Shown: positions 8,325 through 10,971, counted from the first letter of the stretch. The stretch: DNA of 64,000 nucleotides from an alpha proteobacterium BAL199 (GCA_000171835.1 ABHC01000016.1:1-64000); one strand, 5' to 3'. Numbers and translations: made by a program. Notes: generated by a model not told the origin, from the letters alone.

Positions 8325-8468
8325 TCAGTGCCAGTGCATCTTCTTGGCCTGTCCGGGCGGAGGCGAATAGACCTTCTTGGCTTGCCCTGGCGGCACGTGA
8401 TAGGCGCCGTGGCAGCCCGCCATCACGAGCGCGACCGTCATCAGGACGGCAAATTTCACTAATTTCAT
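8325..8468 (-). CDS. 47-residue lipoprotein with a duplicated PPGQAKK motif
   Basis: A short gene reads on the minus strand from ATG 8468, with GGAGG five bases upstream. The product begins MKLVKFAVLMTVALVMAGC, a lipoprotein signal peptide with lipobox VMAGC (Cys19). The mature part is only 29 residues and consists of two near repeats, VPPGQAKKV and PPPGQAKKM, ending HWH. Small secreted proteins with PPGxAKK motifs occur widely in proteobacteria with no agreed function; I rely on memory for that. The good start site, intact signal and clean repeat make it a real gene in my view. It converges on tRNA-Thr. Confidence 0.75.
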   Translation of the reverse strand: MKLVKFAVLMTVALVMAGCHGAYHVPPGQAKKVYSPPPGQAKKMHWH

Positions 8469-8553
8469 CGATCCCTCCGGCATCAATACGTCCCACTCGA
8501 AACCCTCCAGGATGGCACCGGTTCCGGAATCGAAACGATTGATCCGTGACGAG

Positions 8554-8778
8554 TCACCGTCGGCTCACAACCCTTGCCGCCACGCGCTCGGCCAGCCACA
8601 GCGTTCCGGCGGCATAGACCGGAACCAGGGGATAGCGCAGATCCCACAGCCAGGTGCCGCCGAGCACCGTCCAGGCGCCATCCCATTCAACCGGCCCAAG
8701 CCGGAAACCCGTCCACCCGACATACAGCGCCCCGCCAAGGGCGGCGGTCAAAGCGAGCGCGAGCAGCCGATAGAACAT
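8554..8778 (-). CDS. small two-helix membrane protein, last gene of the Rieske operon
   Basis: The 74-residue product has two hydrophobic segments, MFYRLLALALTAALGGALYV at the N-terminus and YPLVPVYAAGTLWLAERV near the C-terminus, with a polar WTGFRLGPVEWDGAW stretch between. No family is recognised. GAGGTGG lies five bases before ATG 8778; an in-frame GTG at 8787 would add three residues. It starts ten bases after the stop of the 256-residue gene, so it belongs to the five-gene operon 8554-10971. It is probably a structural or accessory subunit of that complex; this is inference from context. Confidence 0.7.
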   Translation of the reverse strand: MFYRLLALALTAALGGALYVGWTGFRLGPVEWDGAWTVLGGTWLWDLRYPLVPVYAAGTLWLAERVAARVVSRR

Positions 8779-8788
8779 TGTGACCACC

Positions 8789-9559
8789 TCACAGGTGCTT
8801 CAGGGTGGCGGGGTCGACGCGGAAAACCAGCAGGTCGGCGCGCCGTTCCACCGTGCCACTCAATTCGACATAGCGTGCGGTGTCGTCCAGCAACGCATCG
8901 GTCACCGGCCCGCCTTGCAGATCGGCCAGCAACAGCACCTCCGGCGGTCCGTCGGCGCGGTAGACCACGAACATCGGCGGGATGCCGCCGATCAGGCACA
9001 GGTTGGCGCACAGTTTGTGGGTCTTGCCCTCGCCCGGTCGCATCGCCCCTAGGTAACACTTCGAGTCGACGATCTCGCCGCGCAGGGTCCGCTTGCCGAC
9101 GGCTTCGGATGATGGTCCGGAGAAGCCTGCCAGGGCCGACCGATCCCGGGCCGGGCGCAGATCGACCTCGCCACCGACTTGCAGCATGTCGCGATCCCCG
9201 GCGCGCAGCAGAAAGCCGCCGATGTCGACCGGCTTGCCGTCCAGGTCCGCCGCCTTGTCACGCACGCCGCGCTTGCCTTCACCGGACAGCGGGATCGCCC
9301 GGCCCTGCGGGTAGGCCGCGTCCGGCGGCAGGAAAAGGACGGGATAGGGCTCGACCTTCAGGATGCCGGTCCGGGTCTGATACCCGTCGCCCCATTGGAA
9401 CCCGGCGTCACCCCAGTCGTCTTGGGCAACCACCAGGGTCACCGCCAGCACCGCCGACACCCCCAGCACGCCTCCAACGACAATCGCCAGGAAAGCCAGC
9501 AGCGCACGCGGGGTCTTCAGGTACCCGACGTAGAATGGAGCGCGACCCTGCCTGGTCAT
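8789..9559 (-). CDS. membrane-anchored protein with a Cys/His motif, partner of the Rieske fusion
   Basis: The 256-residue protein has one membrane helix at about residues 20-45 (LLAFLAIVVGGVLGVSAVLAVTLVV shape). The rest is presumably periplasmic. Its most distinctive part is near residues 160-198: GEIVDSKCYLGAMRPG, then KTHKLCANLC and IGGIPPMFVV, giving Cys168, His181, Cys184 and Cys188. Spaced Cys/His like this suggests a metal or disulfide site. A DSxC...CAxxC pattern is familiar from uncharacterised secreted proteins. Its ATG overlaps the stop of the Rieske fusion gene by four bases, so the two are almost certainly co-translated. Exact function unknown. Confidence 0.75.
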   Translation of the reverse strand: MTRQGRAPFYVGYLKTPRALLAFLAIVVGGVLGVSAVLAVTLVVAQDDWGDAGFQWGDGYQTRTGILKVEPYPVLFLPPDAAYPQGRAIPLSGEGKRGVRDKAADLDGKPVDIGGFLLRAGDRDMLQVGGEVDLRPARDRSALAGFSGPSSEAVGKRTLRGEIVDSKCYLGAMRPGEGKTHKLCANLCLIGGIPPMFVVYRADGPPEVLLLADLQGGPVTDALLDDTARYVELSGTVERRADLLVFRVDPATLKHL

Positions 9560-10605
9560 GACACGGCCTCCGCCAGCCGCACCGGTTCGGTCCGGGTGCC
9601 GGGCGGCAGGGCCCGGGGATCGATCAACAACCGGTCACCATCACGGCGCAACCGGTATGTCGCGACCTTCTCGGTGAACGGCGCCGGCGCGCGACCGGTT
9701 TCCGGGTCGTACTGAAAGCCGTGCCAAGGACAGGTGACACACCCGTCGAGGATGCGTCCCTCGCCGAGCGGACCGTTCTGATGGGCGCAGGCGTTGGACA
9801 GGGCGGAGATCTTGTCGCCGTGCCGGAACACCGCGGCACGCTCGCCACCCGGCAGGGTGACGGTGCGTCCGACGCCATCCTCCAGTTCGTCGATCCGTGC
9901 GACCTGGACCCAGCCATCCGCGTCGGATACCGGCGCGGTGTCTCGCCGCGCTTCCACCCGGCCCGCGACCACATGCAGCCCGGCCACGACGGCAAGACTG
10001 ATCCCGATCATTGCTCCGTAAGCCAGACTCGCCTCGGCCTGCAAGACGCCGAGGGTCACGTGCATAACCACCAGTCCATAGGCGGCGTAGACCAGCATGT
10101 GCAGGCGCTTCCAGACCGGCGGGGTCAGGAAGGCCAGCCAGAAGTCATGGCTGGTCGCCGCCATCGCGAACAGCACCGTTAGGGCCGCGATTCCCAGCCA
10201 TTCGAACGGGAAGCCAAGGAAACTCAGATCCGTGTTAGAGCCGAGCAACGCGACCCACGGGTCAATCGGCGAGAACGCGGTGTACCAGCCAAGCACGGTG
10301 TAGAGATGGGCCACGGCGACAAAGAACGTCAGCACGCCGAAATGCCGGCGGTTGTAGAGGACCGGCAGGAAACGGCGATCGAGTCGAGCCAACGGCCCTA
10401 TGCACAGGATCAGCGTCAGCATCCAGAACGCGCAGGTTCCGAATGCCCGCATCCGCAGTTCGGCCCCCCCGATCAGCGGCGGCTCGACCAACCCAGGGGC
10501 CCAGCGAAGATAGATCAGCAGGTACAGCGCCACCCCGACGCCGAGGCAGGTGTCGTAAACGACTTTTGATCGGTTCCACTGGACCGGACGATAACGGACG
10601 CTCAC
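9556..10605 (-). CDS. ferric-reductase-like transmembrane domain fused to a Rieske [2Fe-2S] domain
   Basis: The N-terminal 215 residues hold about six membrane helices with candidate haem-ligand histidines H88 (RRHFG), H100 (AVAHLY), H169 (KRLHM) and H182 (VMHVTLG), as in ferric-reductase-like/MsrQ-type haem b proteins. A linker leads to a Rieske domain at about 230-335 with C273xH275 (CAHQNGPLG) and C292xxH295 (CPWHGFQYD), the four ligands of the cluster. All ligands are present, so electron transfer between haem b and a [2Fe-2S] centre is likely. The GTG start at 10605 overlaps the stop of a 47-residue membrane gene as GTGA. The electron donor and acceptor are unknown; no cytochrome c or molybdoenzyme gene is adjacent. 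Confidence 0.85.
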   Translation of the reverse strand: MSVRYRPVQWNRSKVVYDTCLGVGVALYLLIYLRWAPGLVEPPLIGGAELRMRAFGTCAFWMLTLILCIGPLARLDRRFLPVLYNRRHFGVLTFFVAVAHLYTVLGWYTAFSPIDPWVALLGSNTDLSFLGFPFEWLGIAALTVLFAMAATSHDFWLAFLTPPVWKRLHMLVYAAYGLVVMHVTLGVLQAEASLAYGAMIGISLAVVAGLHVVAGRVEARRDTAPVSDADGWVQVARIDELEDGVGRTVTLPGGERAAVFRHGDKISALSNACAHQNGPLGEGRILDGCVTCPWHGFQYDPETGRAPAPFTEKVATYRLRRDGDRLLIDPRALPPGTRTEPVRLAEAVS

Positions 10606-10745
10606 GGTTTGAGACTGCCGGCTACCGCCCCAGGCATCACCGGTCGGTCGGGCTTCAGCAACAGGCCCAGGCCAAGGCCAACGGCCAGCAGAATCGCAAG
10701 CACCGGCCAGATCCGGCGGTGAACCCGCCGCAGATCACCCTGCAT
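10602..10745 (-). CDS. 47-residue single-helix membrane protein of the Rieske operon
   Basis: A small gene lies between the two larger frames. It begins MQGDLRRVHRRIWPVLAILL, one hydrophobic helix follows (IWPVLAILLAVGLGLGLLL), and a short tail ends SLKP. The basic N-terminus suggests the start stays in the cytoplasm. Its ATG (10745) overlaps the end of the upstream 78-residue gene by 11 bases, and its TGA overlaps the GTG of the Rieske fusion gene. This gap-free tiling on both sides is the main evidence that it is translated. No family is recognised. Confidence 0.7.
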   Translation of the reverse strand: MQGDLRRVHRRIWPVLAILLAVGLGLGLLLKPDRPVMPGAVAGSLKP

Positions 10746-10971
10746 GCCCGGCCCCCCGGCGGTCGATCCGGCTTTCGGCGATCGCCCATCGCACCGCGAC
10801 CAACGGCCAAAGTCCGATCACGCCGGGCGCCACGAGTAACCGAAACAAGTAGGCGCCACGCGCCGACGGGTCGATCCGGTCGACGCCCCACCCCAGGAAC
10901 AAGACGGCAGTCGCGACGCCGACCCAAAGATAGATCCCGGCAAAGGTGACGAGCGCGTTTGCGATTTCCAT
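10735..10971 (-). CDS. 78-residue two-helix membrane protein, first gene of the Rieske operon
   Basis: The product starts MEIANALVTFAGIYLWVGVA, has a first helix at about 5-28 and a second at about 42-62 (FRLLVAPGVIGLWPLVAVRW), with GWGVDRIDPSARGAY between and a basic C-terminus. The DRIDPSARGAYLFR loop looks conserved in style but I cannot name a family. It heads the operon 8554-10971 and diverges from the enolase-superfamily gene across 181 bp, which should hold both promoters. A role in assembling or stabilising the haem/Rieske protein is inference. Confidence 0.75.
   Translation of the reverse strand: MEIANALVTFAGIYLWVGVATAVLFLGWGVDRIDPSARGAYLFRLLVAPGVIGLWPLVAVRWAIAESRIDRRGAGHAG

Follow-up and report, generated by a model that had tools for sequence, protein, structure and literature searches.

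Which electron donor and which acceptor could be served by a ferric-reductase-type membrane cytochrome that carries its own Rieske ferredoxin domain? The question is raised by a 64,000-nucleotide stretch of alpha proteobacterium BAL199 (GCA_000171835.1 ABHC01000016.1:1-64000; hereafter the window), in which five closely packed genes at 8554-10971 on the minus strand include such a fusion. The reading that we favour, and to which we give about an even chance, is that this cassette encodes an outward-directed transmembrane conduit of the ferric reductase domain (FRD) type found in STEAP, MsrQ and NADPH oxidase (NOX) proteins, with a cytosolic Rieske ferredoxin substituting for the NAD(P)H/flavin domain. 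The parts come from known superfamilies; what would be new is the Rieske entry domain on an FRD conduit, together with the periplasmic partner and the accessory subunits.

The cassette is conserved as a set. Within the window's own genome and its relatives (61 genomes), a full-length fusion is present in 13 genomes, and genes 1, 3 and 4 have the same order in every locus read, accompanied by gene 2 in nearly all loci and by gene 5 in most. The genes around the cassette vary genus by genus in these relatives, and the cassette is therefore regarded as an autonomous unit. A scan of approximately 85,000 named genomes recovered 80 loci, the hosts being mostly Alphaproteobacteria (Thalassobaculum, Nisaea, Labrenzia/Roseibium, Stappia, Pseudovibrio, Roseobacter, Roseovarius, Litoreibacter, Filomicrobium, and others), while a few are metagenome bins labelled Phycisphaerae and Chromatiaceae, labels that may be wrong. 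Profile searches in 79 loci found the order gene 1-gene 2-fusion-gene 4 around the fusion in nearly all. A 4-base overlap links the fusion to the gene preceding it in 66 of approximately 76 loci, the overlap between fusion and gene 4 is likewise 4 bases in 58 of approximately 74, and a short frame with hydrophobic helices, the positional equivalent of gene 5, lies 3' of gene 4 in 70 of 75. Full-length fusions occur in 21 of 387 alphaproteobacterial genomes (the class sample), and full-length gene 4, present in 19 of these 387, adjoins the fusion every time (19/19). A phylum sample of 299 genomes contained full-length fusions solely in genomes of the window's class. In an annotated Rhizobium plasmid record the same five genes are consecutive, four of them named 'hypothetical protein', and the Rhizobium copies sit on large replicons labelled plasmids. 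A mobile-element reading was rejected, as phage matches were absent and none of the cassette's neighbors stood out as a mobility gene.

All five frames are real genes under purifying selection, judging from sequence comparison with the close relative Thalassobaculum fulvum (fusion 83% identical), where the ratios of nonsynonymous to synonymous substitution (dN/dS) for genes 1 to 5 are 0.31, 0.46, 0.14, 0.21, and 0.49. Genes 1, 2, 4, and 5 matched no Pfam or NCBIfam model above cut-off, yet the three small proteins have recognizable motifs: G(V/I)DRID..ARG.Y.FR..L.PG...WP.VL.RW in gene 1, RR.HRR.WP...(TM)...RPVE (TM, transmembrane helix) in gene 2, and LRGTWL.DLR...P in gene 5. In Rhodobacterales, a single frame of approximately 125 amino acids (aa) joins genes 1 and 2. 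The dN/dS ratios, the kept gene order and this joining rule out chance or poorly conserved small frames. In the window, the genes overlap by 11, 4, and 4 bases in order from gene 1, followed by a 10-base gap before gene 5, which would shrink to 1 base if gene 5 started at an upstream alternative GTG (8787, giving 77 aa). The layout, sizes and spacing given in the original prediction were thus exact to the base (Table 1). Its proposal that the genes form a compact membrane electron-transfer cassette gains support from the conserved five-gene set and order, and the co-occurrence in the same order that it put forward for checking was found for genes 1 to 4 in nearly all of the 79 loci. Two outcomes that would have spoken against it did not materialize: a fusion lacking its neighbors is a near-absent case, and the small frames are all conserved.

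Table 1 Features of the five-gene cassette (positions counted from the first nucleotide of the window)
Feature	Position	Strand	Basis or start
Gene 1 (sm1), 78-aa membrane protein, ~2 TM	10735..10971	-	ATG start
Gene 2 (sm2), 47-aa single-TM protein	10602..10745	-	ATG start
Gene 3 (fus), 349-aa Ferric_reduct-Rieske fusion, six TM + C-terminal Rieske ferredoxin domain	9556..10605	-	GTG start
Transmembrane haem domain of gene 3, residues 12-221	9943..10572	-	AlphaFold, alignment
Rieske [2Fe-2S] domain of gene 3, residues 232-317	9655..9912	-	Pfam, AlphaFold, fold comparison
Gene 4 (cys), 256-aa N-terminally anchored protein, two OB-like domains	8789..9559	-	ATG start
Cys/His metal-site motif DSKCYLGAMRPGEGKTHKLCANLCLIGGIP of gene 4, residues 165-194	8978..9067	-	alignment
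Gene 5 (sm3), 74-aa two-TM protein	8554..8778	-	ATG start

The fusion matches Ferric_reduct (PF01794; E 3e-11, 43.9 bits against a cut-off of 28) and Rieske (PF00355; E 9e-16, 58.1 bits against a cut-off of 20.3). An AlphaFold model built on 62 aligned relatives (mean confidence score, pLDDT, 88; no haem in the model) shows a Rieske domain and six long helices in the membrane part. The membrane half matches STEAP2 (Z 17.7, root-mean-square deviation 3.5 over 203 residues), STEAP4 (Z 17.2), and NOX5 (Z 16.3) in fold, and the Rieske half matches the ferredoxins of ring-hydroxylating dioxygenases (Z ~13, 18% to 32% identity). The Rieske ligands C273, H275, C292, and H295 (CxH...CxxH), reported as intact from the BAL199 sequence, are invariant in all 62 aligned fusions. 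Of the candidate haem histidines, H88, H100, H153, H169, and H182 are invariant in 62/62, as is R86, and H211 is present in 61/62. The spacings are 14 residues for R86-H100 and 13 for H169-H182.

In the YedZ/STEAP signature, Arg replaces the first canonical haem-spanning His, and His is found at the other position of the third helix and in the fifth helix (PMC3591440). By that description and the alignment, the haem domain of the fusion is of the YedZ/STEAP type, with R86 at the position of the first haem His and H100, H169, and H182 kept. H88, H153, and H211 are additional near-invariant histidines beyond the canonical set. H100 and H182 are likely the outer haem pair, and a second haem coordinated by H169 with H88 or H211 is possible. 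Haem b and [2Fe-2S] are the predicted cofactors of the fusion. Basic residues occur at the N-terminus, in the helix 2-helix 3 loop, and in the linker after helix 6, with none in the predicted outer loops; both ends of the protein, and hence the Rieske domain, are therefore predicted to be cytosolic.

Among characterized systems, NOX proteins (NOX2/NOX5/DUOX and bacterial SpNOX) share with the fusion the membrane fold and a cytosolic electron-entry domain C-terminal to six helices. In the fusion, in contrast, this domain is a Rieske ferredoxin instead of an FAD/NADPH domain, and three of the four canonical haem histidines are kept; with no FAD or NAD family matched in Pfam and Arg at the first haem His position, it is not a member of the NOX family. 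Dioxygenase ferredoxins (CarAc, BphA3, and the naphthalene dioxygenase ferredoxin) resemble its C-terminal domain in fold and ligand set, but here the Rieske domain is joined to a membrane haem domain and no ring-hydroxylating oxygenase recurs as a neighbor. Cytochrome bc1/b6f complexes likewise combine a b-type haem membrane protein with a Rieske cluster, although their cytochrome b fold is different, the Rieske domain of the fusion is of the soluble ferredoxin type and predicted to lie on the opposite side of the membrane, and no cytochrome c1/f gene is present. A bc1-like complex was therefore rejected: the fusion matches Ferric_reduct and Rieske with no cytochrome b/c1 families, and the cassette has no cytochrome c gene. 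The observation that no cytochrome, quinol oxidase or molybdoenzyme adjoins the cassette was borne out for the window, where no cytochrome oxidase, quinol oxidase or molybdoenzyme gene is adjacent. The pairing of Rieske and FRD domains is in itself already known, since Zhang et al. 2013 list an FRD + Rieske architecture, M4, a predicted arrangement with both domains in a single bacterial protein (PMC3591440). M4 differs from the fusion in being labelled FMN-binding (flavin mononucleotide) as well, and the text consulted gives no gene cassette, partners or function for it. A literature search covering sources other than subscription journals and preprints found no description of the cassette, in agreement with the earlier remark that no described system of this exact composition was known to its author.

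If electrons leave the fusion on the outer side of the membrane, the anchored product of gene 4 may be where they arrive. Its AlphaFold model (pLDDT 93) has a helix at residues 18-44 and two domains resembling the oligonucleotide/oligosaccharide-binding (OB) fold. The second places C168, H181, C184, and C188, invariant in 65/65 sequences, on two helices. This site is predicted to be periplasmic. The gene 4 sequence set is matched by no Pfam family, and fold searches of the PDB returned weak, generic OB-fold matches (best Foldseek E 0.0045, to a single-stranded DNA-binding protein; best Z 7.8), too weak for a function to be assigned in this way.

Stand-alone versions of the second domain are found as secreted proteins of approximately 140 to 160 aa that have the D, C, H, C, and C residues of gene 4 within the pattern GE.(I/V)D..C...H..CA..C..GG.P. 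By these five common residues, the C-terminal domain of gene 4 belongs at the sequence level to an unnamed family, defined here, of secreted Cys/His proteins linked to SCO1/SenC. The stand-alone domain adjoins a related secreted paralogue in 12 of 12 loci examined, and an SCO1/SenC copper chaperone is next in 6 of these. Conserved secreted trios of the Cys/His OB-like protein, the paralogue with cysteines of its own, and SCO1/SenC lie at L131:3994-5523, L133:4861-6625, and L137:5242-6847. Because the stand-alone relatives are secreted and often stand beside SCO1/SenC copper chaperones, it is a reasonable inference that gene 4 has a periplasmic copper site.

The same neighborhood is open to a different interpretation, namely that periplasmic Cu(II) or Fe(III) is the substrate of a STEAP-like reductase, with metal instead of electrons being carried by the Cys3His OB protein. 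The STEAP metalloreductases are indeed the top fold match of the fusion, and the SCO1/SenC genes beside the stand-alone relatives would suit such a role. The recurrent neighbors of the cassette itself, on the other hand, include no standout metal transporter, outer-membrane receptor or metal regulator, and in the loci searched an SCO gene lies near just one cassette (L072). We regard metal reduction or handling as improbable.

MsrQ raises a further alternative. This bacterial protein supplies the periplasmic MsrP with electrons (PMC5676040) and is related to the membrane domain of the fusion (E 1.4e-7). The MsrQ/YedZ and STEAP branch (PF01794) has in common with the fusion a six-helix haem domain, Arg for the first haem His, three canonical histidines and a role in moving electrons across the membrane. 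The fusion differs in its Rieske domain and its three extra near-invariant histidines, and the cassette differs in its three tiny membrane partners and its anchored Cys/His OB protein, and in having no MsrP molybdoenzyme. In a repair or quality-control system of the MsrPQ kind, the conduit would reduce oxidized periplasmic proteins through redox-active cysteines of gene 4, whose C-x3-C pair is invariant. We consider this quite improbable. Against it stand the lack of a molybdoenzyme or thioredoxin-fold partner next to the cassette, the fixed His and Asp of gene 4, which resemble a metal site, and a second FRD protein in the window's genome that could take the MsrQ role. This second Ferric_reduct protein, a 321-aa frame (G000:C55:72530-72868), is possibly MsrQ. 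A partnership with an MsrP-type molybdoenzyme was rejected, since none was found beside the cassette in the window or among the recurrent neighbors of the 79 loci.

On the donor side, the favored outward conduit finds candidates among the neighbors. A gene for one or both of two enzymes with an N-terminal Rieske domain lies within approximately 8 kb of the cassette in 41 of 79 loci. In the first, Rieske-ThDP, the domain precedes a thiamine diphosphate (ThDP) enzyme that scores best in NCBIfam against pyruvate oxidase, below that model's own cut-off; in the second, Rieske-GltS, it precedes an FMN-containing glutamate synthase (GltS) domain with C451/C457/C462 in a C-x5-C-x4-C spacing, which we take to equal the 3Fe-4S motif of glutamate synthase. 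The alignment of Rieske-ThDP excluded L091, a ThDP enzyme without the Rieske domain. Both proteins are conserved and apparently unstudied (Rieske-GltS ~536 aa, members 73% to 82% identical; Rieske-ThDP ~659 aa; for example, L063:2494-4101 and L093:10086-12062). Similar Rieske-bearing ThDP genes were seen in haloarchaea and on a Mycobacteroides plasmid. A gene of the Na+/H+-exchanger family adjoins Rieske-GltS in 15 loci, and in Filomicrobium the secreted trio of Cys/His protein, paralogue and SCO adjoins the Rieske-ThDP gene, near the cassette. In two genomes in which full-length gene 4 is missing, G223 (L145:6257-7384) and G360 (G360:C63), a third Rieske fusion adjoins the fusion gene; that of G223, directly after it, appears to join a Rieske domain to an NADPH-dependent FMN reductase. 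Since three different Rieske-bearing enzymes thus adjoin a Rieske-bearing membrane cytochrome, gene content suggests electron hand-over from Rieske to Rieske domain.

In the class sample, 9 of the 10 genomes with Rieske-GltS carry the fusion (0.5 expected; Fisher 6e-12; six of seven families), as do 7 of the 15 with Rieske-ThDP (Fisher 2e-6), but related genomes inflate these Fisher values, the nine genomes with Rieske-GltS and fusion representing six families. Other observations also weigh against such donors. The window's genome encodes neither Rieske-GltS nor Rieske-ThDP, and Rieske-GltS is missing from 11 further fusion-bearing genomes of the class sample; G225 carries the cassette with one Rieske domain besides, in a 195-aa frame about as long as a bc1 Rieske subunit would be. 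A Rieske-fused donor is therefore not obligatory, and an obligatory link to Rieske-GltS or Rieske-ThDP was rejected. The window's genome encodes a 552-aa protein that starts with a Rieske domain and continues in a long C-terminal stretch unmatched in Pfam (G000:C22:4662-5012; L002:1441-3099).

Electrons might instead run inward, from the quinol pool or the periplasm through the haems to the cytosolic Rieske domain, yielding reductant for Rieske-linked enzymes such as the GltS-like protein (reductive amination) or Rieske oxygenases. GltS-type enzymes normally work reductively, the Rieske domain of the fusion is of the dioxygenase ferredoxin type that normally reduces an oxygenase, and the near-invariant extra histidines H88, H153, and H211 are placed by the model on the cytosolic side within the helices, a possible location for a quinone site. 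Yet the structural relatives STEAP, NOX, and MsrQ pass electrons outward, the Rieske-ThDP (oxidase-like) and Rieske-FMN-reductase neighbors would be natural donors, and the conserved periplasmic Cys/His partner would be left needing a role. We regard a reverse or quinone-linked conduit as unlikely.

The gene set, its order and conservation, the predicted folds, the conserved ligands and the co-occurrence of partners all rest on the data analyzed here. Under the favored reading, electrons from a soluble cytosolic donor would enter at the [2Fe-2S] Rieske domain of the fusion. The donor may be Rieske-ThDP (2-oxoacid oxidase-like) or the Rieske-GltS-like flavoenzyme encoded nearby in many species, and Rieske-FMN-reductase in one lineage. 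Electrons would cross the membrane by b-type haem(s) on H100/H182, possibly with a second pair from H169, H88, and H211, and would exit to the anchored periplasmic OB-fold protein of gene 4, whose Cys3His site would hold a metal, most likely copper, or act as a redox thiol. The products of genes 1, 2, and 5 would serve the complex as assembly, structural or accessory subunits. What the scheme predicts are the cofactors and topology of the conduit, its direction and substrates, the identity of the metal, and the formation of a complex. Its full extension, a Rieske-wired system in which thiamine, GltS-like, and FMN-reductase enzymes dock through their fused Rieske domains on a STEAP-like Rieske cytochrome that discharges outward onto a new periplasmic Cys3His protein of copper type, is possible but put forward tentatively, with more doubt than belief.

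In the window the cassette is flanked by a divergent enolase-superfamily gene and, just 3' of gene 5, by a 53-aa lipoprotein-like frame (8325-8486, minus strand) in which the motif PPGQAKK is repeated. In relatives, the surroundings of the cassette gave no convincing match to this frame.

Alphaproteobacteria of sea and soil carry the cassette widely, and its cultured hosts include strains of Roseobacter, Labrenzia/Roseibium, Pseudovibrio, and Rhizobium. If the outward conduit is correct, the NOX/STEAP superfamily would gain the Rieske ferredoxin as a type of electron-entry domain, along with a new periplasmic redox partner, and two unstudied Rieske-fused enzymes would gain a physiological context. 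Should the Rieske-wired system also prove true, these bacteria would have an electron exit, or a respiratory entry, that bypasses NADH dehydrogenase and the flavin domains of characterized relatives.

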